From NCBI RefSeq assembly GCF_008831285.2, contig NC_045147.1:21778981-21842980 (forward strand): a stretch of 64,000 nucleotides of DNA, in the 5' to 3' direction. The position numbers and the translations under genes are program-made. Positions 7,943-60,284 of this stretch are shown here, one piece after another (position 1 is the stretch's first letter; the number at the start of each line of letters is the position of its first letter). Source of the stretch: Nymphaea colorata. Taxonomy: Eukaryota; Streptophyta; Magnoliopsida; Nymphaeales; Nymphaeaceae. The notes below the pieces were generated by a model, which had not been told where the DNA came from, did no database searches, and saw only the letters and a list, made by a program, of their open reading frames with translations.

Positions 7943-10900
7943 AGACCAGCTAGTCCTACCAGTGACAATCTGGACCCTAGGATGGCTTCAGACGAAGCTC
8001 CAGATCTCCATTTCCTTTTATAAAAGGAGCGGAAAAGGAAGGTGGGTAGTTAACATTTATGATTACTACCTCCTTTTCAAAAAGGTAGAGATCTAGATCC
8101 TTGGATGCCATAACAACTTCCAGATTCTTACTCGTATGACTAGCTAATATGCTGAACTGGTCCTATCCAATTCACATATATCTGAGAGCCATGTGCCTTT
8201 TTGTACCTAACTGTGTCTATATGTGTGCATATCTATTTGAATTCCTCGCAGAAAAAATGCATAAAAATATGTAAAGATATCTATGTTAATTCTACTGGAT
8301 CATAACTGGTCAAATAGTCTCACCTGTAAGCTTTGGTCTGATATATCTAGACTTTTTATCATGCTCCTATGTGTAGAAGAGCTTAAGCCTGCTTTCTTGA
8401 TTAGCCATGCAATTGTAGATGGTTCTCCTGTAATAGTATAACTGCCTCCTAAATTCGCTAGAATAGAAGCTGCCATTGTCTGTGCCTTGGTGCTTTGGTC
8501 AGATGAAACCGATTTAAGCAGGACCTCCATGGCTTCTTCTCTGAATACACTCTTACCAGCTGCATCTTCCTGAATTAATATTTTGTTATTAACGATGCAG
8601 ATACATGCTACGAAAAAAGAGTAATGAGAACCTGGAGTTTCTTTCTGTGCCCTTAACAAATTGTATGATGTATGTCCATGGACTTCAAACAATTTTTTAT
8701 TTTTATTTTTATGGTGAACATCAATAAGATTATATTTCATTCATTGTACAGCAAATTCTTTTCTGAAAGATAGCATCAGCCATGCATATAGCTCATTCAA
8801 ACATGAGGTCAGATTAGTGGGTGTCCGTTTTTTCCCTACATCAGTAATCTGTGTACAATGCTTCTTCTACTGAAACCTTTTAACTATGAGCTAGAATGTT
8901 TACCATAATATCTAGCTCAAGCAACAAACTTGCTGCAAAAAGTTTGTGCTCAAGTTGTAGTTGCTGTATGCAGGCAACCAATGTGTGCATGATGTTGGAA
9001 TGACCTTCTTGTCGTATTTGACGTAATAGACCTACAGCTGATGACCTGATGCACAGGCAAACATCACGTCAGATCTTTAACCATTGCAAAAGAAAATCAG
9101 GAACTTAAAAAAAAAGAATTCAACAATTTGTTCTTAATTATTTGTCTAAGTAAGATAATTATCTTATCTCCTAATCTTGTTATTAGTACTTGATGAAGAT
9201 GCTCAGCCAAATGATTAGTTACATTTGCTCATTCTTCTATTCTCTAGTAAGTAATATTTTAGCATTCAATGCGGTCATAGACTCATAGCTATGGTGGTAA
9301 AAAAGAGGATACAACTAAACTAGAGAATGTGGTGGAAAAGAAAGTCTTAAGATAAAGTATGAGCAAGAATCTGGGAAGCACAAATTACGTGTTTTTGATG
9401 ATGGAAAAATTGTGATTCTTTCTTTAGGATAATGCAATTATTCATATACATATACATTTTGGATCAGAAAACCATTAATGACACAAAAAACCTGTGACCG
9501 ATATAGAGTAATCTCGTATAATGACTACAAGAATGATCAGGCTGTCTCCTAAGTCATACATGTGATTAGCTGTAACAGAGGAGGGACTTCAATTTAGTCT
9601 CCCTTTAGCTTTGTATGCATCAAGATGGATGAAAGTTGAACTAGTCTTTGTCAAATTACATAGTTACTCAACTTAATTCTAACATGTGTAACATATTATT
9701 GTGCTTGTTCACATAGTCCTAGGATATCCATGGCTTGTGTATAAAATTCTGCAAAACTCGTGTACATTATTATCTCTTTGCTTGTTCTCTACTTGGCCTT
9801 TCCTAGGATATCCATGGCCTTGTTGGATGGATTGAACATTTCCTTTTCTCTTTTGGTGTTTTCGAGATCTTTTTTGGGGTATATTTTTTTCTGTCTCCTT
9901 TCCATTCTATGTATCTTAAGCTACAACAACAGAAACCCAAATCATGTTATTTAGTTTAATAGTAAAAGAATACCTTTAACAATAATTTACCTATGGAAAG
10001 GCCAGTTGTACTCTAAGATAATATGTGTTTGATGTGCATACCTTGGTAAACGGAGAATTTCATATAAGAACTCAAGTATAACGCATCTTGCATGTTCTTC
10101 TTTACTCTGAAGTAGTCGGATAAATGGAGCCATGGGTGTTACTTGTGCCAAAAAGTTTCTACAGCCTCCATCTGACCTCATGCACCTCACCAATATGGAT
10201 GCCAAAGAGATCCTTTCCTCAAGATTCGTAGAACTGATGAGGTTCACAAGTCCAGGGAGAATTCTTAATGATAATATTGCTGTTATATGCATGTTGTTAG
10301 TTGCATCATCAAATGCTGTTACCAATCTTTCTATCATCATTAATGCTGCCACAGCAGGAACTAGAGGAATAGATATTGGTCCATTTTTATAAAGATCAGC
10401 ATTGCATATAACCTCCACTAGTGTTGGCAAAATCTCTAGTGATTTTACCTCTTCTGTAGTTGGATGTAATAAATAAATTAGGATAGCTGCCTCATATATC
10501 TTCTTGTTTAAAGCATTAGCTAGTGCATGCATGTCCATGTTTTTCTTCTTGATGTAATTGAGTGTGGAGCCTTCTTTCAATATCAAAGATGACAGAATAG
10601 ATATGCATGCCCTTATAACTTCTTCAACTTTGGATGTCAAGATAAGATGTATCAGTTGGCTAAGCACCACTTCCTGTAGCATTATACATCTTTCTAGAAT
10701 TTCATTTTCTAATTTTCCCCAAATAGTTGAAACTTCTAAAATAGCATTTTCACTATTCCCCAGCTCCTTTGAGAAGCATAATGCTGATACTGCAGTTTCA
10801 AATCTTTCTTGTATTTCTGTGCAGATGTCACTGTTGGATTTCAAGTTTACAAGGCCATGTATCTTTTCCCCTTCTGCAAAATCTATGTTTTTCCATGGAG

Positions 10901-13900
10901 ACCTCATATTATGATTGAAAGGATAGAATTTGTCCTTCTCAGGTTCCATGCACGTGCAGCGGCCTGAATAATTGATATTCTCGTTCATTCTTCTGCTAGC
11001 TAAAGTTTTCTCCCTTCTGCTGCCTGGTGGAAAGATAATATTGCTTGTTGGAAAAATGTTGGTTACGTTATCAGACAAGTCAAACAAATATTGTAGATCA
11101 GTGGTGCTGAGTTCTGAGTCAGAGAAGTTGAAGTCACTGATAGGGCTATCTGGTCTGCCAGACATGGAGAACGCTTTATTCATTCCATTGGTTTCTTGCA
11201 GTAGGCATCTTCTAGATCCCAGCGGACATTTGTTTGTGCACTTCAACACTGGAATCAAATGTTGTCTGAACAGCTTTCTGTGTGTTATCGGTACCAAAGT
11301 CAGTGAAAGCCTATAAGTTCCTTGATTCTTCTTCAGCAATCTAAATGAACCACACCAGTGGAATGAAAAGACATTTTCAATTTGAATATGGATTTTACCT
11401 CTCAAAGACACTCATATTCAGATAGTGGTCAGAGCCCTTTGATACATGAACACTAGAATTATTGACTGGGAATGCTACTGGACTGTCATTCATGTTCGCC
11501 ATTGCCTGACTTAAAGTAACTTCGTTAGTACCCAGTTTCCAGCATCATATGTGCTACTACTTTTAAATACAAGTGATTGAAAAAATGATCACGTGCAGTA
11601 CAACTGCCAAGCACATTCACTGTAAATTATCTATTATCAGTAAATTGTCACACTCTTGACCATCTATGAGGAGTTATAAGAAGTTTTAGGGTTGCATGCA
11701 ACTCATTTGCAAAAAGCAACTATGAAATTCTGGTGGGACATGCAAAAACAGGATGTATTTTGGTTGCATAGCATATTTGTTTCTCATGACATCAACAAAA
11801 CATTACTTTGGTGTTGGTTGGTTTGATCAGGTTCATGTCTTGATAGTCATGCAGTTACTGCTTAGAGATTCCTTTAACTGAATTCAGATCTTAACAAGTT
11901 TGACAGGAGTGAAAGCACGTGCTGGTCATTTGATTTGAGAACTAGAACGATAGCATGCCAATACATAAATATGTACATACATATGTATAACATGACTGAT
12001 TGACAGATAAGCATGTACACTCAACTACAAAGCACACACTTTGGTGAGTGTGTGTGAGTTTCTGTGCGTTCTTGTGCTAGTTTATCAAATTTTACTTCAA
12101 CTTCTTCATTTTCCGATCAACCACTTACCAGGCACGATTCCAGTAAGGAGTATTAGATTTTTTTCCTGTTCAACTTTTAATGTCTGTACGTAGTATTTTT
12201 ATTGTGGTTCATCTCCCTAGTTCTTTAAACAAGGCCCTGTTATTGGCTGATACTAAAAACAAGAGAGAAATAAAGAGGGAAGCATGAGGCTGGATGATTC
12301 TCATTTGGACGATGATAGTGTTTTAGATGTTTACTTGTTTACTCTTTCGCTAAAGGTGCAAGTATTTTCCTGCTTAGTGAAATCGTTAGTAAACTGATTT
12401 TTGTTTCATCCATTTTAGTAAGTGTTTGTTGAGACAAGTTGCATTCTATCAATTCCATTGCATTGAACACCAACGGAGAGGGTTTCTTATTCACTCTGGT
12501 CTCTTTTTTCCTTTTACACCGAAGTAAATGAATAATTTAGGACCCGTGTTCTGGGCATGCCATTTCTATAACATTTGGAGGGTGGGAATGCTTCTGAATC
12601 AGGTGCTACTCCAATCTCATACTGGGGTCACAAAATTTGGTGGGAAGTTTGTCCCCGGTTAAGGTCTGCATTGAATTTGGTTTTCGAAAAAAAAAAAAAG
12701 TAAAATTGGTTCGACTTGAAGAGGGTAACACACATGACTAGTCGGTCGCCTTATATTTTGTTTCAAGCGCTGTCACAAATATTGGCGATCTTTTCCCAAA
12801 TAAATGACAAAAAGGGGGAAAATAGAAGAAAAACAAAAAGGGAAAAATTGTGGTACTTTGTAAAATATTTGAAAATGAGACTATTTGCACTTTTTCTTCA
12901 GAATAAATGTTTTTTAATGTAATTTAATTTTCTGGATGAATTTTTTAAAGAAAATTAGTAGAAAACTCATTTTTTCATATTCTTTCTACAACATTTTTCT
13001 ATTTTTCATTTTTTGAATTTCTGAAAAAGCATTGCCCTTTAGTACATTGGGAGAATCTCGCCAATAAAAAACCAAGAAAGATATTTGTGAATGACGTCCA
13101 GCAACACCCTTATGGGTCAGATCTAGGTCTAACATGATCCTTGGGAAGTCATTTCATGCAAATTTACTATCATTTGAGAGTTTCTAGATGCTGCTGCTGA
13201 AATTTTTCTCTCTGTTTCAGAAGAACTGATATGGCATATGAATAGATCTTTACCTCTTGGAAGGCTTCTTTTTCAGCTTGTTGACAAAAACCCAGATGTT
13301 CCATGCCTGTCTCCTGGTACCTGTACACACAATTAGCATATAAAGATAGCTTATGGACTTGATATATAATACGCGCATGTGCACAAAAGAAGCAGCAGTG
13401 AAGCTGGCAAACTGGATATTACTAAAGAACGCAACGGAAACATTCGGCAAACAATATGAATAAATGCAATTTGTCTGGTAAGATCTCCCAGCAGTACTTT
13501 TTCCCTCATCAGACGTGCAAGGATTCCTTGTTGGTAATTTGCCTAAAATTTCTCACAGAATTCGGGGATATATGTTTCGTCATATGTGCTGTTCTGTGAA
13601 TTTCTGCAGTTGTATTGTCTGCTTGTTTTCGACAGAAAGGATGTTCTCAATGCTGAGAATGGATTTGGGCTGGCAAAAATGTAACCAGAACACTCAATTT
13701 TGTACTACATCAATGGTTCTCGGCATTATGACCCTGATCCTGATAAGAGGTGGCAAGTTGGCAGCTATTTTTTGTTTCGAGAAGTGTGTACAATTCATAT
13801 AGTTAACAAGAAAAGCAAAACGAAGTCTAGCTGGATTTTCCATTTAAGCTTCATCTTGAACTATGCGTGCACGACGCAGGCACGCTAGTGCACACACGCA

Positions 13901-14924
13901 GGCGCGCACACACACACACGCACACATATTCTTGATGCTCCTCCTTTTTGCTAGAAGCTACAAGAAAGAATCTTTTAGCAAATTCTTGCAAATTGAGAAG
14001 ATCAGAACAAGAACCTAGCTTTTCAGAAAGGCATAACAGGATACCAAAAAACAGTGCAGGTAAAGTCCTGGGACATTAATATGGGACATGCTGCTGGGTA
14101 ACTAAATGAAAGTCTTTAAATCTTCCAATCATGACTCGGACATGTCAACATTTGCATAAAGAATAATTGGCGTACCGGTATTCATGCACTTCTTCGCTGC
14201 AGGTAAATAGCTGCCAGGAGGCGCCCTCTCCATAGAAGACAACTTGGTAATACATCAACCAATCTTTGTACCTGCGAGCCTGCTGTCTTGCTGTTTCATC
14301 AATTGCATTCTCACAATACTCATCAAGCGACTCGAGATTTGGACTCCCTTGCAGATCGCACATGTTCTCTCCCACAGGACTTTGGTATACAAAAATCTGT
14401 TTCCAAAGAGAGGGTGCAAATTCTTTGCGGATGTCACGTGGTGAGACCAACATTGCTTGAAGAAAGTGGGACGTCATCTGAAGTTCCTCACTCCTGAGCT
14501 TCCAAACCAGGGAGAGATAGAAATAAGCACATGCTACAATGTACTGATTCGAAGCAGCCCCTGTTTTCCCATGTTCATCCAAGAGTGCTGGTATTTGCAG
14601 CATTTCCTCGGCTTTCTGCAAGCAGATAATTCTCGACTCACAGAACTTCGTGATCTTGAGTGCTGCTTCGATTTTTTCAATTCCCCAGTAGAGGTTGGAG
14701 ATGACAGAATGGTCAGCGAACTCAAAAAACTCCTGCTTCTTCCGAATATTGAGCTTAGAAGCACATCTGAGCTTCAGAGATTTACGTTGCTCCGGGTGCA
14801 TGAGGAGCTGGGACATGAAGTCATCAACTAAGATTATCAATGCCCTTAAGGAATTCAGGTCTAATCTTTGAAAGTTGGTGGTAGCCGAGAATGAGGAGGA
14901 AGCAGATGAGAGAAAGGAAGCCAT
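2090..14924 (-). CDS. LIN/CERBERUS-like ARM and WD40 repeat protein, 16 exons, no U-box
   Basis: Exons, 5' to 3' on the minus strand: 14924-14176, 13320-13254, 11505-11399, 11340-10042, 9045-8904, 8569-8324, 7840-7546, 7479-7352, 7034-6915, 4584-4453, 4352-4230, 4045-3935, 2796-2650, 2553-2425, 2316-2200 and 2107-2090. They total 3930 nt (1309 residues plus stop), and every junction keeps phase with GT/AG borders. Residues 1-270 match the LIN N-terminal region (MLQIPALLDEHG, YKDWLMYYQVVFYGE). About 480-1010 is helical ARM/HEAT-like sequence. 1012-1309 carries WD40 blades (SGHSDGTIK then VWDIKG; LLSGSMDKTIR then IWQMV), ending AWIPS. LIN/CERBERUS proteins are E3 ligases of the rhizobial infection pathway, but no U-box lies between the N-terminal and ARM regions here, so ligase activity is doubtful. 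The ATG at 14924 has a good context (CCCATGG). A scaffold role is an inference. Confidence 0.9.
5230..5870. repeat. degenerate GAGCTCGAG-rich transposon-like repeat in a LIN-like intron
   Basis: This part of the 2.3-kb intron between exons 9 and 10 is rich in motifs such as CAAGCTCGAGCC, GAGTTTCATAAACTC and TTCGAGTTTTGACTTGAGCTC. The same vocabulary fills the elements at 23369-23861, 35875-36478 and 61200-61570. Clear terminal inverted repeats and a target-site duplication are not visible, so it is probably an old, eroded member of that group. Confidence 0.45.
6130..6445. repeat. cluster of palindromic CCAGTCCC..GGGACTGG motifs
   Basis: Within the LIN-like intron the motif AACCAGTCCCanaaTGGGACTGGTTTTTcAGGTCCC recurs in whole or part near 6133, 6262, 6302 and 6412. 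Each copy is itself nearly palindromic. The spacing is irregular (about 130, 40 and 110 bp), so it is not a simple tandem array. It may be the ends of nested small transposons or a subterminal repeat cluster. Confidence 0.55.
7888..7940. repeat. (AG)n microsatellite
   Basis: An uninterrupted run of about 26 GA dinucleotides lies in the LIN-like intron between the exons at 8569-8324 and 7840-7546. It is likely to vary in length between individuals. Confidence 0.95.
11524..11530 (-). promoter_or_regulatory. consensus branch point TACTAAC in intron 2 of the LIN-like gene
   Basis: The minus strand reads TACTAAC 18 nt upstream of the acceptor used by the exon at 11505-11399 (TTAAGTCAG then GCAATGGCG). 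A perfect branch-point consensus at that distance supports this acceptor, and therefore the direct joining of exon 2 (ending AEKEAFQE) to exon 3 (starting AMANMNDS) without a U-box exon in between. Confidence 0.55.
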
Positions 14925-15016
14925 GGGGGCTTGCAGAGTGAGTGTAGCAGTATGAAGTTTTTTGGTTAAAAGGTAGCATGTGAAAGAGATAGGAAAGCCA
15001 AACGGATTCGAAGAAG

Positions 15017-15060
15017 AAACACTAGCCCACGGGTTCGAAGAAGAAACACTAGCCCGTGAG
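15017..15060. repeat. 27-bp tandem duplication in the LIN-like gene leader
   Basis: The unit GGNTTCGAAGAAGAAACACTAGCCC is present twice in tandem about 100 bp upstream of the LIN-like start codon, in the presumed 5' untranslated region. The reading frame stays open through it, giving SVSSSNPWASVSSSNPF if translated. An in-frame ATG far upstream (15188) therefore cannot be excluded as the start, but the extension has no family resemblance. A TTAAATAGA sequence near 15196-15204 (minus) could be the TATA box. Confidence 0.7.
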
Positions 15061-15209
15061 TGATGCAGACAAAGGACAACCCAGATTTCGTGGCCAATTT
15101 TGGTGGCCCCTAAAGACCCCTCAGTCTGAAGGATGGAAGGACGTTGCTTTCTGACTCGAGAAACAACGGTAATTATTCTCTGCAGCACTGAGGTCAGTCT
15201 ATTTAACCT

Positions 15210-31680: not shown

Positions 31681-32522
31681 CTTTAGTCCAAGTCTTATTT
31701 ATATAGAAATCTTAGTTGCTTTTGGGTTGCATCTGTAAGTCAAATTTGGACCAATAGAAATGATTTCATGTGGAACAAAATTATGCGACATGACTTGTTG
31801 CCAAACCTTTGTTGACTTTCTAACATTTAATGCTTTTTATTTCGAGGAAAGGTCGACTTATGAATTTCGACGTAACGGGCAGAGTTTGAAACAGTGAACA
31901 AGATTTGGCGTGATGTTTTTTTGTCAGCGGTTTGTCAATTTTGGCTTACACCACTTCTTCGACGTGTAGAAAAAACAGCAAAAAATTCTCGTGTTGATTT
32001 ACTTTGACCAACTTCTTAAAACTAAAATGATCAAACAAAAGAAATTAAAACTTGGTATCCAACTTAGTTTGCCTGGCTCTATTTGAAATTGAGTCTTATA
32101 TTTGAGAACCCAGTACCTTGCATGTAAACTACATGCATAAAAGATATGATCATGAGGTTTTCGAAGGCTGTTTTTCTAAGTGAACATTTAAAAAAAAAAA
32201 ATCGTATTTGACTATTAATAGGATGAAAATAAGATATGGAACTCAAATTCAAATTCAAATACCAAACTGCATAGTGCATACCAAATCCAAATTCCATTAG
32301 TAATTAGACATTTAGACTTGAATTGCTTTAGTCCCATTGACTAAATTGATTCGAACCCCCACTCCCCAGTCTCAGGGGCCACTTTCCTGGAGCTGCGTGT
32401 GGAAAGTGGAAACTGGGAAATTATAATGAATTGCTTGGTAAATCGATGACCGACCGTGGACCATCACCAGAAGTGGTCACATACCAACGAAGATTCATCG
32501 ACAATGCCGCTTCCCGGCGATC

Positions 32523-32532
32523 CTTTTAAAGG
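32523..32532 (+). promoter_or_regulatory. conserved CTTTTAAAGG core-promoter box, copy A
   Basis: The box lies 56 nt before the ATG and sits in a block (CTTTTAAAGRCTACCAATCTCTTCAAATCCAT) nearly identical in all three copies. Position and composition fit a TATA-type element with a leader of about 25 nt. More than 100 bp further upstream is also conserved between copies. Confidence 0.5.
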
Positions 32533-32578
32533 CTACCAATCTCTTCAAATCCATCATCGCTTGCCTGTTTTCTTCATC

Positions 32579-32749
32579 ATGGGGAAGCTGATAATCTCTT
32601 CCAGCGCTGACGAACCGGATTTTGGAGGACTGTTCGTAGCCCTCATCATTGCATTGGTTTTCATGGCAATATGCTTTCCTCCAAGGCGGCGAATTCTTGT
32701 ACCGCTGTGCGGTTGCGGTTATTGCCGGAGATGCCGTCCCTTCTTTTAA
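32579..32749 (+). CDS. small single-pass membrane protein with Cys-rich tail, copy A
   Basis: The protein is 56 residues and the family is not recognised. It has an N-terminus MGKLIISSSADEPDF, a hydrophobic segment at about 17-34 (GLFVALIIALVFMAICFP), a basic RRR, then a cysteine tail CGCGYCRRCRPFF. Two paralogs downstream on the same strand (38232 and 41272) keep the length, the DEPDF motif, the membrane segment and a C-x-C-G-x-C-x-R-C-like tail. The start is chosen because homology begins at this ATG: the upstream reading frame is open here (to 32456) but not in copies B and C. No N-terminal signal peptide is seen. The tail could bind metal or be palmitoylated; both are inferences. Compared with B and C it has lost the terminal CC and gained RPFF. 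Confidence 0.7.
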   Translation: MGKLIISSSADEPDFGGLFVALIIALVFMAICFPPRRRILVPLCGCGYCRRCRPFF

Positions 32750-33539
32750 GGGAAATGAAGCTCTGTTCGTGCTTCCTGCAATCTTGTGTCTCTATTTCTT
32801 CGTCGACAAATGGAAGCACTTGTTCCCTGAATTTTGTTTTCCGTTCATGCATTTGATTTTTCATAAGCTGGACGATTGTATGCAACAACACCATCGATTC
32901 GGAAGTTGTTTGTATAAACTACCATTCACCAATCTGTGCATGTTTCGCAGAATGTAAGCAAAGGATTCGCTTCAAATGTTCAGTCCCTGTAATTATCTGG
33001 TGTGAAGGAACAAGCTGAAACACTAAGTTGGTATTGGGCAGATCCTGATGAGATTACGCCAAGAGAATTATATTCTGGAGATCAAAGGCTTGGCCTTCTT
33101 CAAATTTGAATTCTTGATTTAACCCACCAAACAGGTGAATGGAGAACTTGTTGCCATTGTTCAGTTACTCGCATGAAGCTTAATTCTGCGACCGGAAGTC
33201 TTTGCATCAGCTGTAAAGTTTGTCAGTTTAATTCCCGTGCATAACAAGAACGTTTTGTTGTTGAAAGGGCGTCTAAAATTCAATATCTTGTTCTGCTTCC
33301 CTTGCTGTGTGGTTGATCCAAGAGAAAGAGGAAACTTTTTTCTTCGGACTTGCAGACAATTTTATGCAGTTCTTCTGTAAGAGTAATATTTTCTATGTCA
33401 AATAAGGACAGGAAACCAACTCCTGTTTCATGGTTCACAAGGGGATTTTCTCACCCGGCCTCCCTGCCCACCCAATGCTCTTATTTTAGCTCGGTATCAA
33501 TGTTAGGATCCAATAGATCGAGCCTTTATTCGATCCATT

Positions 33540-35740
33540 TGTGCCAGTAACCCGGACAGAGTTTTAGTTCCTTTGATTTTGGACACTAGACCTTAATTGC
33601 AATTATCGAACAAAGTGCGCTTGTTTACAAGCCTGTTAAGCATGTGTACAGAGCTTTCTTCTTACAAATGCTCGTATAAATTTATACTAATTAATTGGTA
33701 TTAGGCAATCCCAAATTGTGTTAGGTTTGAACCATAATAACAAATCTTGTTTTTATATTTTAAATGGTGAGGTTTTTCTTCGGTATAGTACGACAAACTT
33801 GAAAAAAATGGAAAACATATGATAGATTTAAAAAAAAATTACAAAAAAATAAAAATTAGGAAAAGATAAAAATAAGTTAGAAGCTAATAAAAAAAATAAG
33901 CACGTAAACAACAAATAAAATATAAGCAGTATAACATTAAAAAGGGGAAAACGAAAAAGTGTGTGTAGATTTGGCTGACCGAGTGCATTGAGGTAACGAG
34001 AGAAAGTTGCGTGCGCGGTGCGATTTGTACATCCTAGGCTCGATTTGGGATCTAAATGGTCGATATAGTTTTGGTTTTTGTCTTGTTTTTTTTCTTTTCA
34101 GGTCGGCGGGTTTGAGTTCAACGAGATATGATTTTGAATTGGTTCTAGATTATCCAAAACAGAATCGGATACATCTCTAATCGTTTAATTTAAAGGTGGC
34201 TTTTGAAAATTGAACCAAGTTTCGTGTTTGATTCCATTCAAATCAATGGCAACCAAACTTTAGGATAAATTATCTCAAAATGAAAACAGTGATAATCAGT
34301 GATTTAAAGCTATATTTGGATGAAGGAAAGAGAGGTGTAGGAATGGATGAAAGGGAAAAAAAGAAGAAGAAATGGGAAAGAAAAGAAAAATAAAAAAAGG
34401 AAAATGATCATCCATGAATTGAAATTACATTAAAAACTTATTTCCTTTCTCTTGCATCTAAACACTTTATTTTTTTTTTCTCTATATTATTCGTTTCATT
34501 CATTTCCCTCCCTCTCCTTCCATTCAAACTGGCTGTAAAAGACAAACTGGGATTCAACGTCAGTTTTTCGTTCTGCGGTTTACTCCATTACCCGGAACCT
34601 GTTGGTTTACGAAGGTTCTTTGTGAGTTGGGGTGACAACATAAAGAAAATACGTGGTATTAGCGATTTGCGAACTCGTCTTAAAAGGTCTAACTAAAAGC
34701 CACCGAGGTGGGATTAGGAGATGACTCTTCCAATAAAACATGGGATTTATCGAGGATGATGTCGCTGAAGGCCGGGGTGGAGGACAACAAACGTTATGCT
34801 ATTGCTATGGCTGCCTGTGAGTTTCGTTTATCTTCTGTTAGTGTTTCCGTTCCGATCAAAGTGAACCTTCTCTGAAAGCCTAAAACTCGACAACCAACTT
34901 GCCAGATCGGTGCAATCTCGACATTGTGACATCGAATTTGATCTCTTGAATCGATTGTATGTTGATGCCAATGTGATCTTTTCCTCATTTCCATATTATT
35001 CCTTACCAATTTTAACGCTCACTGTTTCGTATGGTTCGTTTTGGGGCTAGTTCTGACAGTAGTAAATTAGGAGTCAGTTTCTGTATTGGGGCATAAAGAA
35101 TGAAAGGGGTTCTGGGGCAAGTGCACAGTGGTGATTTATGAAGACAGAGATTGAAGTCGACTGGTCGTGGAGGTACCATTACAGACATAATCTGAAGCAT
35201 CTTGGTACTGTAATGGGTGTGCCAAGAGTGTTAAGAAGGTTGCAGGTTGAATTTTGCAGCGTTGCAAACTGGTGCCCGATAAGTAACTTGTTTGGACATC
35301 TTAACATGCTATATGATGCTTTGAGTACTGCAGCTCTTTCTTTTTTTTTTTTTCTTTTTTTTTTGTGGAAATAATGGTGCTTGAATTGGGGACATGACGA
35401 GCTGAAAAGTTCAATATTGTATTGACCTGTAGACGGCGCTGTTTGAGCTCATCAATCAATCATGCATCTTTTAGTTTTTCTTGGTTTATAATCGATTCAC
35501 TTATTTTACTTCTAGTCCATCACTTGGCACTAAAGCGCTCTGTGCAGTGCGGTTATCAGTAAAGGAAGAGTCGTGGGGCACCTGTAGGACGTGCTGCCTT
35601 TATGGTCTCAACCAAATATTTTGGTGCTTTAACTTTTGACGAAGACAGTTGATATAGCTAGCAAAATTGTACTAAAATAGCTTAAAATTGTTGTCTTAGG
35701 ACAAACGGATTTGTAGACAGTCTAAGAGCTTGTGTCATTG
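33540..35740. other. intergenic between duplication units A and B, no gene seen
   Basis: The interval is AT-rich (33820-33960 is strongly A-rich) and includes the MITE at 34314-34530. ORFs near 34800-35370 have no partner or motif. T-runs lie at 35341-35364. Confidence 0.4.
34314..34530. mobile_element. MITE with purine and pyrimidine arms
   Basis: The left arm ATTTGGATGAAGGAAAGAGAGG at about 34314 and the right arm CCCTCCCTCTCCTTCCATTC..ACT ending about 34530 are imperfect inverted repeats, so one strand is polypurine at the left and polypyrimidine at the right. No ORF is present. A related left arm (ATTTGGTTGGAGGGAAAGGAGG) lies near 39404. Confidence 0.6.
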
Positions 35741-35744
35741 TTTT

Positions 35745-35845
35745 CTGTCTTAACAGCAGGCATTAAGAGGAAGATTTTGAGTTCTTACAATGCTTCTGTC
35801 TTAACAGCCAGCATTAAGAGGAAGATTCTGAGTTCTTACAATGCT
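35745..35845. repeat. 51-bp tandem duplication
   Basis: CTGTCTTAACAGC..GCATTAAGAGGAAGATT and the following GAGTTCTTACAATGCT occur twice in direct succession with two or three differences. It is a recent local duplication with no visible coding role. Confidence 0.85.
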
Positions 35846-35874
35846 GCCAACTAGGTTTTTCGGGCACTTGCAAG

Positions 35875-36478
35875 TAGGGGTAAGCAGCGAGCTGGAGCTA
35901 CTCGAGCTCGACTAGTTAAAGCTCGGTCAGTGAATAAGTTCGAGCCGAGTCATTTGCTTAACGAGTCGGACACGAGTTCATGTGTCGACTCGTTCAAATA
36001 ATCGAGTTGAGTTCGAGCTCAACATGTAACTGATGAGTCAAGCTCGAGCCTTAATCGAGTTTGCCGAGCCTTAATCAAGTCGATATATTCAAATGAGTTT
36101 ACGAGTTTATCGAGCCTTAATCGAGTTGAGCTCGAGCTCAATACATAATGATGGATATCAATTTTATTCAAACGAGTTTGTCGAGCCTTAATCGAGTTGA
36201 GCTTGAACTCAACCAGTAACGATGGATATCAATTATATTCAAACGAGTTTGTCGAGCCTTAATCGAGTTGAGCTCGATCTCAACATATAATGATACATAT
36301 AAATTCTATTCAAACGAGTTTGTCGAGCCTTAATCGAGTCAAGCTTGAGCTCAACACGTAATTGCCAAGTTGAGCTCGAATTGCTTCCGTCAAGCTATTC
36401 TCGAGCTCGAGGTTTCATTAGTCAAACCGAGCTCGAACTAAATGAACTTGGGCTTGACTCAGCTTGTGTTCACCCCTA
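35875..36478. mobile_element. hAT-like non-autonomous element with internal tandem repeats
   Basis: The element is 604 bp, starting TAGGGGTAAGCAGCGAGCT and ending AGCTTGTGTTCACCCCTA. The flanks CTTGCAAG (35867-35874) and CTTGCAAA (36479-36486) match at seven of eight positions. Inside, from about 36050 to 36355, a unit of about 70 bp (containing AAACGAGTTTGTCGAGCC, TTAATCGAGTTGAGCTCGA and GATGGATATCAATT) is repeated about four times. It has no transposase. The GAGCTCGAG vocabulary links it to the elements at 23369 and 61200. Confidence 0.85.
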
Positions 36479-38176
36479 CTTGCAAAAGAAGGAGAGTCTA
36501 GGTTCATTGCAGTTGCAACTCTCAACGGTTGCTTGTCTACCATGAACATTTTTTTTCCTGTGGATTCTTACATTCTTTGATTCTTATTGAAGCATTGATG
36601 TAGCACGTCTGTGGATGAGAAATCTCTCAACTCACGTATCCTGTGGTTGGTTGCATCCAGTGACTTGAACAAAGTAGTTTGAATCTGAAAGGTCCACGCT
36701 CATGATGAAAAAATAAAAGTAACATATGTTTGAGAAGCACGTAACTTCAGTATCATGGGTAGATTCTTTCGACTGGTCCCCATTTGAGAGAGAGAGAGAA
36801 TGAGTCCTTGGTCAATGATTTTTAATGGATGTTCGTTCGCTTACATCAACATTTTATCAGAAGTTTTGTTAGACAAATCCGATAGGGCTTTCGGCTTGTT
36901 TTGGGATCTTTTATTTTTTTCCATTGAAGCGTAGCTTTCGCGCTTCTTATCCACCCATTTGTCCATCTCTCTCCTCTTGCATGCCCCTTCTCTTTTTCAA
37001 AAGCTGAATAGGAAAGGCCAGTACAAAACCCTCGGTTACCAGAAAACAAACTAAAGCTTCAGACTTTTAAGAAGTTAGAAAAGTTGAAAAGAAAAGGAAT
37101 TTTTCTGAATGATCTAAATAAAATGGATGATATGTCCATTCATGAGGGCGTATTTGATTGTAAAGAAAAAATATCATGGATGAAAGATACGTATAGCCAT
37201 ATAAAACAACGTGTAAAGTACGTATAGGCGACAAAAATAATGTTTTCAAAAGGGTGCAAATAACTTGACCCCTTTCAGCATGGAGTAATTGCAAACAATA
37301 TGAGATTGGAGAAGGGAGATACTTTTTTTTTTTTTCCGGTTGCTGGGCTGTAGCTGGTAGTTCCGTCTTCTGTCTTCTTCGTGTTAATGTCATCAATTTT
37401 TTTATCTTCTGCAGCCTGCAGGCATCAATTTCTTCTGCAATCAACGGAGGATGCCCAACTTCCAGCAACTTGTCTTGTCATCTAAACTTGCAAACCAAGT
37501 TTCAAAACTGGTTAAAAGACTAATCTGCCACAAAATTTAATTTTCATACAAAGTTTTTTGAAGGTGTCATCCAAACCCATCTTAAGATTGTTTTCTAATT
37601 GATATTTGCTATGTAAAAGTGATTTATGTGATCGGTTTAACAATAAGAGTCCCTTGCATAATGTCGAGATAGAACATGTAACTTTTTAAAGGTGACATGA
37701 CTTGTCACCAAACCTTCGATAATTTTCGAAGAATGCTAGAAACGTCGGTTTATGAATTTCTCTATAAACTACTACCACCATGCATGATAACCAACCCAGT
37801 TGCAAAAAATCGTGAACAGGGTTTGGTGTGAATTTGTCGCCTTCGATTGCAAACGCTACAGAATCCATCGACAAGCATGACGCTGTGGTTCTTTGAATTT
37901 CCGCAGTTTGGTCGATTTTAGCTTGCACCGCCCCTTGGACGTGTTGAACCTGAAACTTACTGTCCACAAGGTGAATTTCGCTATTTATAAAAGGTGTGTG
38001 TTTCCTTGCCCTGTCCTGATTGTTTTACCAAGATTTTACAAGAACACATCCAAGTTGTGATGGAATTATAATTAAGTTGGTAGGTAAATCGATGTTTTCA
38101 GATCATGGGACCATCACCGGATCGACTTGGTCACTCGCTAATAAAAATTTATACGCACGACTGCTTCCTGGTCTTC

Positions 38177-38186
38177 CTTTTAAAGG
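38177..38186 (+). promoter_or_regulatory. conserved CTTTTAAAGG core-promoter box, copy B
   Basis: The box lies 55 nt before the ATG in the same conserved block as in copies A and C. Confidence 0.5.
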
Positions 38187-38231
38187 CTACCAATCTCTTC
38201 AAATCCATCGCTTGCCCGTTCTCTTGTCGTC

Positions 38232-38399
38232 ATGGGGAAGATGATAATCTCTTCTGCAGCAGATGAACCAGATTTTGCAGCAATCTGTGTAATTCTGATC
38301 GTTGCGTTGGTTGTCATGGCAATCTGCTTCTCTTCACCAAGTGGAATCCGTGTAACGGTGCGCTGCTGGCGTTGCGGTTGCCGTAGATGCTGCTGCTAG
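38232..38399 (+). CDS. small single-pass membrane protein with Cys-rich tail, copy B
   Basis: The protein is 55 residues. It starts MGKMIISSAADEPDFAA, followed by a membrane segment at about 17-34 (AICVILIVALVVMAICF), a short polar linker SSPSGIRVTV, and the tail RCWRCGCRRCCC. With seven cysteines in the last twelve residues it is the most cysteine-rich of the three copies. The upstream frame is closed relative to this ATG, so it fixes the start for the family. Mature function is unknown. The charge pattern (acidic before and basic after the membrane segment) suggests the N-terminus outside and the tail in the cytosol, which is an inference from the positive-inside rule. Confidence 0.7.
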   Translation: MGKMIISSAADEPDFAAICVILIVALVVMAICFSSPSGIRVTVRCWRCGCRRCCC

Positions 38400-39403
38400 T
38401 TACTTCTTTCAGGGAAAACGAAGCTCTGTTTCATGATTCCTGCAATCTCGCGTCTGTACTTCGTCGTCAACAACCTGAAGCACTTATCCTTGTTCCTTGA
38501 ATTTTCTTTTTCGTTCATGATTTTTCATAAGCAGGACGATTGTATGGAACAACACCGTCGATTCGAAAGTTGTTTGTGAAACTACCATTTACCAATCTGT
38601 GCATGTTTCGAAGAATGTAAGCAAAGGATTCGCTTCAAATGTTCAGTCTGTGTCTGCTGAAGTGTGATAAAACAAGCTGAAACACTAAGTTGGTGCTCGG
38701 CAGATCCTGATGAGATTATGCCAGGAGAGTTTCATTCTGGAGATCAAAGGCTTGGCCTCCTTCGATTTTAAACTCTTAATTTAACCCACCAAACAGGTGA
38801 ATGGAGAACTTGTTGCCATTGTTCAGCTACGCACATGAAGCTTAATTCTGCGCTACAAAGTCTTTGAATCGGCTGTAAAGTTTGTCAGTTTAATTCCTGT
38901 GCATAACAAGAACATTTTGTTAGAAGGGCGTCTAAAGTTCAATATCATGGCATGCTTTCCTTGCTGCGTGGTTGACTTAAAAGTCTCCTCTATCTCTTCT
39001 CTTCAGGCTTATAAACAATTTTGTGTAGTTCTTTTGTAAGAGCCATAGACAGGTTTTCTTGTCAAATGAGGACAGGAAAGCCAACTACTGCTTCACGTTT
39101 CACTCGGCCTCCTTGTCCACCTAATGGTGTTATTTTGGAGCTCGGCGGAAAGGGTTGTTTTATTTAATATGTTTAAGGGGTCTGTCCTATGAAATTTGTG
39201 GTCGCTATCACAACCCAATGTGCTACTTTCACTCACTATAAAACCGCTTGGAAGCATGTCTCAGAGACGACGGCTACAGTTCGAAAGCATGTGCTATGTG
39301 AACTCAAGGGACGATGGGCACATGGGAGAAAGGGGGCGGGCTAGATCAGTAATCCTTCTACGATTAGCCTAGGGGAATGTATGTGATTGTTCTTTAGCGC
39401 TTT

Positions 39404-39625
39404 ATTTGGTTGGAGGGAAAGGAGGGGAGGGAATGGGAAGGGAAGGGAAGAGAAAGGAAAGGAAAAGGAATGAAATAGAAAGGAAATGAAAGAGCTGATT
39501 AAAAAGTTTATTTGGATAGAAAGGAAAGAGAAAGTAATGAAATGAAAAAAAAAAAAGACTAAATAGCACTGTATTTAGAAAGGAGGGAAAAAAAAGGAGG
39601 GGTAGTGCTGAATCCAAATAATTTT
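39404..39625. repeat. polypurine MITE-like repeat
   Basis: The left end TATTTGGTTGGAGGGAAAGGAGGGG and the right end GCTGAATCCAAATAA form short inverted ends around almost pure purine sequence on the plus strand (about 39411-39480 and 39575-39600). It is related in its left arm to the MITE at 34314. The run could form triplex or H-DNA. Confidence 0.5.
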
Positions 39626-39800
39626 GAATCGAATTTGGCTGATTTTCAAAATGTAAGGGCAATAGATGTAAGATATTTGTTTAAAAATAAATATGATCAG
39701 ATGTCGTTTCTTAATTTCAAATCCAATTTGATTTCTTAATCAGATTTTTTCGGAGCAGTTCGGTCGAATATCCGATCCAAAACAGATATATTGAAATCCT
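39620..39800. repeat. truncated copy of the 21795 repeat
   Basis: TTGAATCGAATTTGGCTGATTTTCAAAAT and the terminal TCCAAAACAGATATATTGAAATCCTTA match the right half of the repeat at 21795-22157. The left half is missing and the copy abuts the polypurine repeat, suggesting a nested or partial deletion event. Confidence 0.55.
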
Positions 39801-41216
39801 TAAAATGGACAATGCTACAGTTCACTAGATATTTTTTTAAAAAAAAAGAATTATTTAAGGGGGCCAAGCCTTGTTTTCCAAAAATATTACAGAGGCCAAA
39901 CAGACATTTTTAAGCCTCTCAGAATTCCCCTTCCGTCGGAATTGACCTACTCAAAGGGAAGGACTTTTAAACACGCTCGAATGTTTGTCCGACATTTTAT
40001 GTAGAATTCTGTACTTATTCACACTTTGAGAAAGAAAAAGTCTACCTGATAACTGCATATGGTAAATTTTATTTGTAAGATTCTGTACAAGTGCTCACGT
40101 TTGGGTGACAGCATTTTGAAAACATCGTTTATATTATGTACAGGCGACAAAAAATAATGTTTTCAAAAGGGTGAAAATAACCTGGCCTCATCGTCATCAA
40201 ACACAACACCTTAGATTGTTTTTCAAACTGAAATTTGATATGTAAGAGTGATTTATGTGGTTGGTTTTACGACAAGAGTCCAACGTCTCAGATAGAACAC
40301 ATTAACTTTGTAAAGTGACATGACTTGTTACTAACCTTTCAATAATTTTCTAATAATTCTCCAGAAACGTCGACTTGTGAATTTCTGTATAAACTGCTGC
40401 CACCATGCATGATAAGCGACAAAAAATCGTGAACAGCATTAATTTGGCGGTGATTCTGTCATCTTCGATTGCGCAGGCTACAGTGGCAAGCATGACATCG
40501 TTCTTCTTTGAACGTGTTGGACGTGGAGCTCACCAGACCACAAGCTCACCAAGGTCTCCGCTATTTATAAAAGCAAAGGTGTACGTTTCATTTGACATAT
40601 TCTAAGGTCACCATGTCCTGTTGAACTAGTTTTGATTTCATCAAAGCATCCCAAAATTTTGGTTTCGCCTCAAAAGTCACGTTTTAGAGTGTCATCTAAC
40701 CGCTTCCTTAGACTTTTATTTCCTATAAATAACTTTTTAGATCAACAAAAAGTGAAGGAGAGAAACTGAAAGTTGCATGCTTTTTACTTGATCTGATTGT
40801 ATGTAATAGGATTGGCAATTGGGTTTTCTTTTCTGTAACCGAATTCAAGTTTGACTATTATAAGATCAACATTCATATGTAATAAGGATGGTTATTTGTA
40901 GGATGCAAGTGGGGTTCAACTTCCAAGTATGAAACTGCGTAACCAAATTCTGATTAGCAATTGGATTTGAATTGCTTTAATCAGATCTGACCAAATGGGT
41001 TCCAAATCGAATCGATAACTAATTTACATCCCTAACATCAAGGCCATTATACTGGCCTGCTGCATGTGGTCTTCTCTTTTCCATACCGTGGAGACCGGGA
41101 AATTATAAAAGTTGGTAGGTAAATCGACGCTTTCAAGGAACAGATCGTGTGGCCATCATCACATCGACTTGGTCTTGTCAATGAAGATCGATACGCGTGA
41201 CTGCTTCCTGCTCATC

Positions 41217-41226
41217 CTTTTAAAGA
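41217..41226 (+). promoter_or_regulatory. conserved CTTTTAAAGA core-promoter box, copy C
   Basis: The box lies 55 nt before the ATG in the block shared by all three copies; the last base differs (A for G). Confidence 0.5.
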
Positions 41227-41271
41227 CTACCAATCTCTTCAAATCCATTGCTCGCCCGTTCTCTTTCCCTC

Positions 41272-41436
41272 ATGGGGAAGCTGATAATCTGTTCTAAAGA
41301 TGATGAACCAGATTTTGCAGTATTCTGTGTAGTTCTGATCATTGCATTGGTTATCATGGCAGTCTGCTTCCCTCCAGCAATAAGGGGATTCCGTGTAACG
41401 GTGTGCCGCTGCGGTTATTGCCATAGATGCTGCTAG
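41272..41436 (+). CDS. small single-pass membrane protein with Cys-rich tail, copy C
   Basis: The protein is 54 residues. It starts MGKLIICSKDDEPDFAVF, followed by a membrane segment at about 17-34 (VFCVVLIIALVIMAVCFP), the linker PAIRGFRVTV, and the tail CRCGYCHRCC. The changes from copies A and B are mostly conservative: the hydrophobic core varies as I/V/L only, DEPDF and VMA.CF stay, and the tail keeps CxCGxCxRCC. That pattern looks like purifying selection on a protein rather than drift, but only three copies are available. It is not a canonical CYSTM protein, in which cysteines open the membrane segment. Confidence 0.7.
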   Translation: MGKLIICSKDDEPDFAVFCVVLIIALVIMAVCFPPAIRGFRVTVCRCGYCHRCC

Positions 41437-42049
41437 TTTCTTCTTTCAGGGGAAAACGGAGCTCTGCTTCATGATTCCTGCAATCCTGCATCTGTACACT
41501 ACTTCTTCGTCAACAAACGGAAGCACTTATCCTTGTTCCCTGAATTTTCTTGTTCGTTGATGACTTTTCACAAGCAGGACGATTGTATGGAACACCACAA
41601 TCTATTCGAAAGTTGTTTGTAAAACTGCCATTCACCAATCTCTGCGCGATTCGCAGAAGGGAAGCATAGGATTCGCTTCAAATGTTCAGTATGTGTCTCT
41701 TGTGAACTGTCAAATAAATAAGAAGCTGGAAGGCTAAGTTGGGTTTACATTCTGGATATCGAGGGCTTGGCCTTCTTCGATTTAAACTCTTTTACTTGAA
41801 CCCATGAATTACAAGGCAATGAAGATCTTGTTACCATTGTTCTGCGATTCGCACGAAACTTAATTCTGAGTTTCAAAATTTTGCATCAGAGTTTGTCAGT
41901 TCAATGCCGCGCATTGTTTAAAGGGCGTCTCATTCTTTCCTTTGCTGTATGGTTGACTACAGGCAATCACGTCTGGTTCTTTCTATAGAGCCATACTTTT
42001 CATAAAAACGGTTAAATGAGGGCAGGAAGTACACTTCCCTTAACCTGAA

Positions 42050-48978: not shown

Positions 48979-50369
48979 ATGGGGTGTGGGGGTTCAAAGA
49001 GCAGCGACGTTGCAACCGGCAACACCATTATCCGCAGAGTCCTCGACAAGAAATCTGATGCTCCCAAGAAATCTGACGCACCAATCGGAAGCCTTGAACA
49101 GAAAACAACTGAGGTACACGAGAACTCCACAGAGGATGCCAACGGTTCTGACAAGCCAGCAGTCGTGGTGGCAGATGTGAAGGACATAACAGAGAACAAT
49201 GAAGTAAAAAATGGGGATGCAGTCAATGATGGTGCCCCACTTGAGGATGCTAAAGCCGGGAAGTTGATAACCGGAGACTCCCCAGACGAGTATTTTTCGA
49301 TGAGGAAGGATGAGTCTGTCGATGTAGTAGCTGTGACAGGCTTGGGATACTTCTCTCCTGGCACCGGACCAAGTGAAGGTGTTAAGAAAGAGGAAGAATC
49401 ACCTCTTGGAAATGATATTGATAACAGCAAACAGAATGAGGAGCCAGCATGCAGCAATACAGATGATAAGAAACATGAAGAGAATTTGCCAGGGAACAGT
49501 GGAGAGCCATCTTTAACAAAAGGTAAGAAACCATGATTCTGCTAATCGGATTAGATCTCCAAAATAATAGGTCAAATGCTTCATGTTCTTGTTCATACAG
49601 AGAAGGTGCATGAAGAGGGAGCTGCAGATTCAAAAGAACCAATTGTAGCAGAGGAAGCCAAAGTCGAGTCTCCTACTAAGGAAGACAAAGTAACCATTGC
49701 CGAAGGCTCAACTGAGGTATGGCCCAGCGACACTTGTAACTGAACTCTGACATTTTTTAAGACAAATCAAACCATCTTGTAAAGTTTGAAAGTTTGCTTG
49801 CTAGTGTTTGAGGTGGAAAGAGAAAAATGGGAATTAGTAAGGTTCTGAATATGTGAGATCCAATGAGATAACACCATTAATATGTCTAAGACCTTGCAAT
49901 TTTGTTTATTGATCAGTATGATTTTTCAGGATGAACTTCAACAGTAGCATTAGATGTAGAATGAACTTTGGTATATTTCTTTAATGGTCCCAAGCGTTTG
50001 AACAGATGTTGAATGTTGTCAATTAGTCATATGTCCACAATGAAAACAAGAAGCATGAGTAAAAAAAGGAAAGAAATGGTAGGGTATGATCCATGGCATT
50101 GTTGTTTCTATATGTTTATAATTTCATGGTCAGGTTTTCTGGATTTCTGAGAACATGTGATCAGAGCTTACTTTAGTACCTAGCATACTCTTGACAATGG
50201 GACAGCATCACCGAAAAAGGAAAAAAATAATGTCAAGGATGACATGAACCACCCCAACTATGTACTGGAAAAAAAAAACCATAGAATGATATCTGCTGTG
50301 TTATCATAAACTATCCTCAAGAACGTTTCTAACATGTGATTACATGAATTTCAGGAACCAAAGCCATAA
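48979..50369 (+). CDS. acidic disordered protein with acylated-type MGCGGSK N-terminus
   Basis: There are three exons: 48979-49522, 49601-49716 and 50355-50369 (EPKP then stop). Donors are AAAG/GTAAGA and GAG/GTATGG; acceptors are CATACAG and TTTCAG; phases agree. The protein is 224 residues. Gly2 and Cys3 in MGCGGSK fit N-myristoylation plus palmitoylation, so peripheral attachment to the plasma membrane is inferred. The rest is Glu, Asp, Lys and Ser rich and lacks a folded domain. Local motifs are a basic IIRRVLDKK near residue 18, DEYFSMRKDES at about 103, and GYFSPGTGPSEG at about 122. It resembles plant MGCxxSK proteins of unknown function. The third exon is unusually short and adds only four residues. 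Confidence 0.8.
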
Positions 50370-55330: not shown

Positions 55331-55346
55331 GAAAGGGCCTGACATG

Positions 55347-55484
55347 AGAGGCAATGTGCTAAGGCTAGCCAAGGTGACCTGCCTACTCAATGTCAAGAAA
55401 CAAGACAAGAAGAATGGCCCTTGTCTTATATCATTGAATCAAGAAGGCAAGTCATCCTTGGCTACCAGAGCACATTGGCACCTC
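55347..55484 (-). ncRNA. MIR169: MIR169 precursor hairpin (minus strand)
   Basis: The minus strand carries UAGCCAAGGAUGACUUGCC at 55464-55446 on the 5' arm (21-mer 55464-55444, ending UU), the canonical miR169 sequence. The 3' arm at about 55384-55364 reads AGGCAGGTCACCTTGGCTAGC and pairs with it except for a small 2x1 internal loop. The stem extends outward: GAGGTGCCAATGTGCT pairs with AGCACATTG-CCTC. A terminal loop of about 59 nt contains a secondary GACAAG/CTTGTC stem. miR169 guides cleavage of NF-YA transcription-factor mRNAs and responds to drought and nutrients. Arm position, pairing and length all fit the family. Confidence 0.92.
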
Positions 55485-57135: not shown

Positions 57136-57305
57136 AAGGGATGGAGTGAGCTTTGTAGCCAAGGATGACTTGCCTATAATGTTGCCTGCAAAATTAAGCA
57201 TTAGAGGCTAGAAACTAATTCATACGGTTTGGACTTTAGGCTTAGGGGGTTATATTTTAGGTGAGTTGTCTTTGGCTACATAGACTGCCTCTATTCTTGT
57301 TTCCT
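57136..57305 (+). ncRNA. MIR169: MIR169 precursor hairpin (plus strand)
   Basis: UAGCCAAGGAUGACUUGCC begins at 57156 (21-mer 57156-57176, ending UA). The 3' arm at about 57260-57280 reads GGTGAGTTGTCTTTGGCTACA and pairs with the whole 5' arm using Watson-Crick plus several G-U pairs and no bulge. The loop is about 83 nt, longer than in the minus-strand hairpin. The flanks GGAAGGGATGG and TTGTTTCC pair loosely. The two hairpins share the miRNA but hardly any loop sequence, so they are separate loci rather than a fresh duplicate. The likely product again targets NF-YA messages. Confidence 0.92.
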
Positions 57306-59192: not shown

Positions 59193-60284
59193 TCAATCAC
59201 GGTGGGCACCTTGCCCTCCTTCAGTACTAGCGCTCTTGGGATGGTAGCCAGGCAGCTTCTCCTTGATCTTCTCCACTATGCCCTTCGTCTCAATTTCTGG
59301 ACCTTCACCTTCATGGTAGCGCCCCTGGGGCTCAGGTTGATGTGCCACTGTATCAGCCAGCAGCGGCGATGTTGTTGGCCGTGGCGGTGCTGGGTTGGAA
59401 TCGCCACCAGGCATTTTCTCCTTGATCTTCTCCAGGAAGCTCTTCTTCTCAGGGGGGTGTCCTTCCACTTCCACAACGGGCATCTCCTCCTTTACCAGCA
59501 GAAGCTCTTCGCCTTCAGCTCTAGGCTTCTCCTCTTCTCCACATATCTTCACCTTGATCTTGTCTTTCAGGCTCTTCTTCTCTTTTTTCTTCTTTTTGAT
59601 CTTCTCTTCGGAGTCGCCTTCTTCTTCGCCACTTGACTGAAAAGGTGCAAGAGACATTAGAACAGAAGTATTGTCTCCATGAATCGTTAAGCTGCTCTGA
59701 ACGAAAGAATCGGGAACATATAAATTCTGAAGACGAAGTCATTCTTATTAGGCTGTAGAAATCGCTTCCAAATTAGCCACCACGTGGTGTTGCTTAATTT
59801 TCATGGCATGAATCATGATCCATGACAAACAGTTAGTTCGTAACTTCATAGGATGTTTATTTTTATAATGATTTATGGTAGTGCAACGGAGATTGCATGT
59901 TCAGGTCAATCAAGGACCTGTTTCCATCTCTTCATTAAATTCAAAACACAATTCAATATGTTCCATGAATATGAACTAACAGATGGAAGGCAAATTAAAT
60001 CTATATGGATTACACCAGAATTACGAGAGTTTCAAATCAAGTATAGAAAAGAAGGTGAACATGGCACTTACAGAGCTAGAATCATCAGAACCATGGAACT
60101 TCAAGCCATGGTACTGGTCGTCCTCCTTCTCCTTCTCCACATTATCTTGCTTAAACTGCAAAACATTGACGTCCTCCAATTCAGTAGCTTGGTGGTCGTC
60201 CTCCTTCTCCTTTTTGAACACATCAAGCAAGCCCCTCCCCGAGACAACAGCCTCACTGTCATGGGACTTATGATCTTCAGCCAT
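59193..60284 (-). CDS. acidic dehydrin with F, S and K segments (LEA group 2)
   Basis: Two exons, 60284-60072 and 59636-59193, are joined in phase 0 (donor CT/GTAAGT, acceptor TTTTCAG) inside the serine tract, the usual intron position in S-segment dehydrins. The protein is 218 residues. In order: an F-segment-like GRGLLDVFKKE at 17-27, an S-segment FHGSDDSSSSSGEEEGD at about 63-79, a lysine run, a degenerate K segment EKKSLKDKIKVKICG at 90-104, and two good K segments, EKKSFLEKIKEKMPG at 134-148 and ETKGIVEKIKEKLPG at 187-201. Dehydrins are disordered proteins that protect membranes and enzymes in drying or cold cells; the K segments form amphipathic helices on membranes. The upstream DRE and ABRE cores fit stress and ABA induction. 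The first K segment has lost the LPG end. Confidence 0.93.

Follow-up and report, generated by a model that had tools for sequence, protein, structure and literature searches.

We describe here three small open reading frames (ORFs) that lie in tandem in a 64,000-nucleotide stretch of the water lily Nymphaea colorata genome (contig NC_045147.1, positions 21,778,981 to 21,842,980 of the forward strand; hereafter the window, with its first letter as position 1). The three frames probably belong to a small and unnamed plant family of membrane microproteins, each about 50-60 residues long with a single membrane pass; at this locus they have been duplicated in tandem and partly homogenised. The frames appear to be real genes, and the grounds for saying so are distant loci of the same genome that share the protein only, rather than any contrast between the frames and their flanking DNA. 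A sequence-only reading of this DNA had singled out the same objects and was right about them, but wrong about its main reason, so that its observation and its interpretation are each upheld in part.

Three tandem frames and their distant relatives

Translation and alignment give the following frames, each intact from ATG to stop where the sequence-only reading had placed it.

32579..32749, + strand: copy 1 ORF, 56 residues, consisting of MGKLIISSSADEPDF, the membrane helix, CFPPRRR and CGCGYCRRCRPFF
38232..38399, + strand: copy 2 ORF, 55 residues, with a tail ending RCWRCGCRRCCC
41272..41436, + strand: copy 3 ORF, 54 residues, with the tail CRCGYCHRCC

The start codons of copies 1 and 2 are 5,653 bases apart and those of copies 2 and 3 are 3,040 bases apart. 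All three proteins agree in 27 of the 59 columns of their alignment; MGK, II and DEPDF are kept throughout, as are a large part of the membrane core and some of the cysteine tail. The description of the trio as paralogous small genes with one membrane segment and a cysteine-bearing tail is borne out. The proposed tail pattern CxCGxCxRCC is not present in all three: copy 3 fits it best, and copy 1 has RPFF in place of the final CC. At the end of the copy 1 frame the DNA alignment contains a gap, of 7 bp relative to copy 2 and 4 bp relative to copy 3.

Searches of the whole genome (407,766,735 bases in 783 contigs), on which the copy number of the trio rests, yielded no further copy of the trio's own grade among the matches listed. 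Protein searches did, however, identify three more distant loci.

C10:13.1 Mb: P0004, 62 residues, or 48 if read from an inner MG
C7:18.7 Mb: P0005, 48 residues, beginning MGKICC
C5:18.1 Mb: P0006, 85 residues, beginning MGKHCC, a weak match

With the trio protein P0001 as query, the C10 locus is matched at E=7e-6 and the C7 locus at E=0.0014; P0004 in turn matches copy 1 (2e-6), copy 3 (0.0024), the C7 locus (0.0079) and copy 2 (0.028), and P0005 matches the P0004 locus (E=0.0019) and copy 1 (E=0.0063). P0001, P0004 and P0005 are thus linked by reciprocal significant matches across the genome. Copy 1 is the best non-self or the second-best match of the distant relatives, and it is the sole non-self match, a weak one, of P0006. 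Comparison of the DNA around the P0004, P0005 and P0006 loci with the trio units gave short matches only, of 13-43 bases, and no extended similarity. When the N-terminal part, the helix and the tail were shuffled separately, none of 500 shuffles reached the real score in 10 of the 15 pairs, including those of copy 1 with every distant relative; in the other five pairs, each of which involves P0005 or P0006, between 1 and 8 of the 500 did so. Intact homologs, which the sequence-only reading had wanted sought in related species as a check, are present at least at other loci of the same genome.

Duplicated units, mosaic history and selection

Self-comparison of the window places the frames within longer duplicated units, and motif positions in the alignment of the copies reveal a TATA-like element ahead of each start codon.

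32509..33438, + strand: duplicated unit of copy 1, 80.5% identical to 38163-39103, with a 3' part that presumably takes in the 3' untranslated region and runs past it
37203..37790, + strand: extra duplicated pieces upstream of copy 2, with 37203-37264 matching 40119-40181 (87%) and 37566-37790 matching 40193-40415 (79%), in an order that agrees with that of the copy 2 and copy 3 units
38064..39103, + strand: duplicated unit of copy 2, in which 38064-38655 is 82.9% identical to 41101-41698
41101..41868, + strand: duplicated unit of copy 3
32524..32531, + strand: TATA-like TTTTAAAG, 55 bases before the copy 1 ATG
38178..38185, + strand: TATA-like block, 54 bases before the copy 2 ATG
41218..41225, + strand: TATA-like block, 54 bases before the copy 3 ATG

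The TATA-like motif sits within a block, CCTTTTAAAG.CTACCAATCTCTTCAAATC, common to all three copies, and may serve as a promoter element. We also note a GGTAGGT, the reverse complement of the MYB-bound AC element, at 38079-38085 and 41114-41120, 153 and 158 bases before the ATGs of copies 2 and 3 respectively and not before copy 1. Local tandem repeats occupy 35743-36362, between copies 1 and 2.

The sequence-only reading had argued that the coding part is kept while the DNA around it diverges, and this is ruled out by the identities. For copies 1/2, 1/3 and 2/3 respectively, the ORFs are 72.8, 78.5 and 84.6% identical (gap columns excluded), whereas the 70 bp upstream are 88.2, 83.8 and 88.6% identical, the first 100 bases past the stop codon 80.6, 83.9 and 89.0%, and the interval from +100 to +250 93.4, 85.4 and 86.8%. 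Every pair of copies is thus closer in the adjoining DNA, 70 bp upstream and 250 bp downstream, than in the frame itself, and the argument from divergent surroundings fails. Identity drops to 68.5-77.2% between -150 and -70, and the copies are mostly unalignable beyond -150. The general point is that among young tandem duplicates the similarity of a short ORF says little before the flanking DNA has been compared, and the telling evidence lies in distant loci with the protein alone in common.

The trio arose by tandem duplication, and its copies form a mosaic like that left by gene conversion. Sites where one copy differs from a matching pair number 16 for the pair of copies 1 and 2, 19 for copies 1 and 3, and 46 for copies 2 and 3 between -70 and +150; between +151 and +560 they number 70, 15 and 16. 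The closest pair accordingly switches about 150 bases past the stop codon, a pattern that gene conversion or unequal exchange would produce, and this mosaicism may explain the large differences in synonymous divergence between pairs.

The ratio of nonsynonymous to synonymous divergence (dN/dS) by the NG86 method is 0.33 for copies 1/2, 0.38 for copies 1/3 and 2.4 for copies 2/3, and maximum likelihood gives 0.41, 0.52 and 3.4; Fisher tests on the NG86 counts return p=0.003, 0.023 and 0.17. The ratio proposed earlier as a check on constraint is therefore below 1 when copy 1 is set against either of the others, but not when copies 2 and 3 are compared. Survival of the frames goes beyond chance: of 20,000 runs simulated under neutrality, 0.25% keep all three (with the ATG and 52-58 codons), a figure that is rough and optimistic given that branch lengths and indel rate were set by hand from the alignments, with copy 3 as the starting sequence, and that the copies were taken as independent; single-copy survival is 4.4, 10.9 and 47.8%. 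Among the surviving frames, 28% are as similar as the real copy 1 and 75% as similar as the real copy 2, and since such similarity is not unusual, the likeness of the proteins within the trio is by itself no evidence of constraint.

One further copy is plainly broken. A DNA search of the genome found fragments of the unit at C5:15973574-15982587 on the - strand (C5:15.97-15.98 Mb). The block resembling a promoter and a fragment with the sequence ADEPDFVGLFVS are still present there, whereas about 50 bases including the start codon are lost; the 3' region lies some 8.4 kb further on and is 71-77% identical to the three copies. The intervening stretch of about 8.4 kb is rich in repeats, among them long direct ones that are 75-79% alike and spaced by about 6 kb, and may be a retroelement.

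Protein plan, known families and competing explanations

The sequences of the six proteins, the trio and the three relatives, suggest a common plan: after an MG[K/S] start come a brief acidic segment and a single helix some 18 residues long, then a turn of the form C/S-P-P or C-M-P-R and a short basic (P-x-R) tail. All six contain one 19-residue hydropathy peak of 2.6-3.3, flanked by a net charge of -2 to -5 on its N-terminal side and of +3 to +6 on its C-terminal side. The AlphaFold2 model of copy 1 has residues 15-32 as a helix, in a block with predicted local distance difference test (pLDDT) values of 71-85, with tails under 60 and a mean pLDDT of 59.9. The basic tail carries 4-6 cysteines in the trio, whose helix holds 1-2. 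C32 of the trio lies where the membrane ends; P0004 and P0005 have such a border cysteine too, and P0006 does not.

These features suggest that the tail may be cytosolic, and S-acylated or metal-binding. The acidic-before, basic-after charge bias would, under the positive-inside rule, put the tail in the cytosol; the border cysteine could be S-acylated; the tail cysteines might bind a soft metal (Zn, Cu or Cd), be redox-sensitive, or be acylated themselves; and the protein could then act as a small membrane-bound adaptor in stress or defence, as has been proposed for CYSTM proteins. Taken as a whole this scheme, which we infer from composition, is tentative and on balance doubtful.

The family is unrecognised, as the sequence-only reading had it, in that Pfam-A returned nothing significant for any of the six proteins (scanned at E<=1 for P0004 and E<=10 for the other five), although absence from Pfam does not mean that they are unannotated in plant databases; the sole match was an insignificant OppC_N for P0003 (E=1.5). 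Among solved structures there were only insignificant matches, the best at E 0.75 for P0003 and 0.57 for a six-protein profile. A pattern search of bacterial and archaeal genomes gave 593 stretches of which none was confirmed, as expected for a plant family, and in open-licence text peptide words from the relatives drew no paper and none of the titles listed names this family, which does not show it to be unpublished.

The nearest known kind is CYSTM, although its definition does not fit. A CYSTM protein has a variable N-terminal part and a C-terminal transmembrane helix with 5-6 cysteines, of which three to four stand in a row, and an acidic residue comes next (PMC10217909); the Arabidopsis genes for CYSTM proteins called PCMs lie in tandem clusters (PMC8049917), as do those of the trio. 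The trio also resembles CYSTM proteins (which include the Arabidopsis PCMs and yeast MNC1) in very small size and in cysteines toward the C-terminal side, and with 54-56 residues and one hydrophobic segment its proteins are, judged from sequence, small single-pass membrane proteins. They differ in that CYSTM cysteines lie inside the helix, whereas here the helix holds 1-2 and the cluster lies in a basic tail beyond it. Membership is ruled out by this placement together with the lack of a Pfam CYSTM match in all six proteins. Plant cadmium resistance proteins (PCR, PLAC8) are likewise small plant proteins whose cysteines adjoin membrane segments, but they carry the PLAC8 motif and two membrane helices, and none of the six proteins matches Pfam PLAC8. 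RCI2/PMP3 proteins are stress-linked, small hydrophobic plant membrane proteins of about 54 residues and so are similar in size, but they have two membrane spans and a Pfam model, whereas the trio has one span and no Pfam match.

Several points weigh against the reading of the trio as part of an unnamed microprotein family or against the features we assign to it. Besides the flanks being closer than the frames, dN exceeds dS between copies 2 and 3, where only about 2.5 synonymous changes were counted, and these two may not be under constraint. P0006 is a weak relative, with E=0.46 in one direction and 3.7 in the other and a long unrelated tail, and the genome-wide protein queries left out P0002. 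The cysteine cluster, put forward as a family trait, belongs to the trio and not to all members: P0005 has HCHC, P0004 at C10:13.1 Mb a single tail cysteine, and P0006 only that of an RRC. The orientation of the tail is read from charge alone, and the MG-x-x-C-C starts of P0005 and P0006 resemble dual-acylation sites, which would put the N-terminal end in the cytosol instead.

There are three other explanations to consider. The trio could be decaying duplicates of an old small gene, whose frames persist only on account of the youth of the copies and their homogenisation by gene conversion; the closer flanks, the mosaic structure, the ratio of 2.4 for copies 2 and 3, and the broken C5 copy, which has no start codon and whose parts lie about 8.4 kb apart, are all what one would expect. 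Yet copy 1 shows dN below dS against both others (p=0.003 and 0.023), all three frames were so rarely kept in neutral runs, and the same protein plan recurs in distant relatives at unrelated loci, and we consider decay unlikely. A similarly low standing is given to the proposal that the genes encode a cysteine-rich peptide of defence or signalling that is secreted or faces outward, acyl-anchored in the cytosol by its N-terminal end with the tail in the apoplast, and that the changes between copies 2 and 3 reflect positive selection. The basic tail with 4-6 cysteines, the excess of dN in that pair and the MG-x-x-C-C starts would suit such a peptide, but the charge bias predicts the opposite orientation in all six proteins, the excess is not significant (p=0.17), and inspection by eye shows no cleavable signal peptide. 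That the conserved object is a transcribed RNA, with the ORF incidental, we regard as very improbable: the 3' region is the best conserved, at 85-93% identity from +100 to +250, above that of the frame, and the broken C5 copy keeps about 71-77% there, but common descent accounts for the C5 copy equally well, Rfam at gathering score gave no match in the trio region, and what the distant relatives have in common is the protein, without the 3' DNA.

In its widest form, which is possible although we would not rate it at even odds, the proposal is that an undescribed family of membrane microproteins of about 50 residues predates the trio duplication and may extend across flowering plants, that a basic cysteine tail, acylated or metal-binding, docks on the cytosolic face of the membrane, and that at one water lily locus the family forms a gene-converting tandem cluster in which copies 2 and 3 change fast. 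If expressed, these genes would mean that an early-branching flowering plant has a membrane microprotein family not listed so far, and comparing the three tandem copies, the broken copy and the distant relatives would be a natural experiment, on a small scale, in the origin and maintenance of such genes.

Other features of the window

Elsewhere in the window, an ORF of 185 residues at 48979-49536 (+ strand) begins MGCGGSKSS, an acylation-like start, and has only one, insignificant, Pfam match. Pieces of a LIN-type E3 ubiquitin ligase lie at 8300-15188 on the - strand, with the Pfam domains ARM_LIN, ARM_LIN_2nd and ARM_LIN_C in three ORFs. Rfam matches the MIR169 precursor at 55346-55482 and 57145-57292, about 1.8 kb apart and both on the + strand, the first also matching on the - strand, and a dehydrin ORF is present at 59193-59657 on the - strand (Pfam E=7.5e-14).

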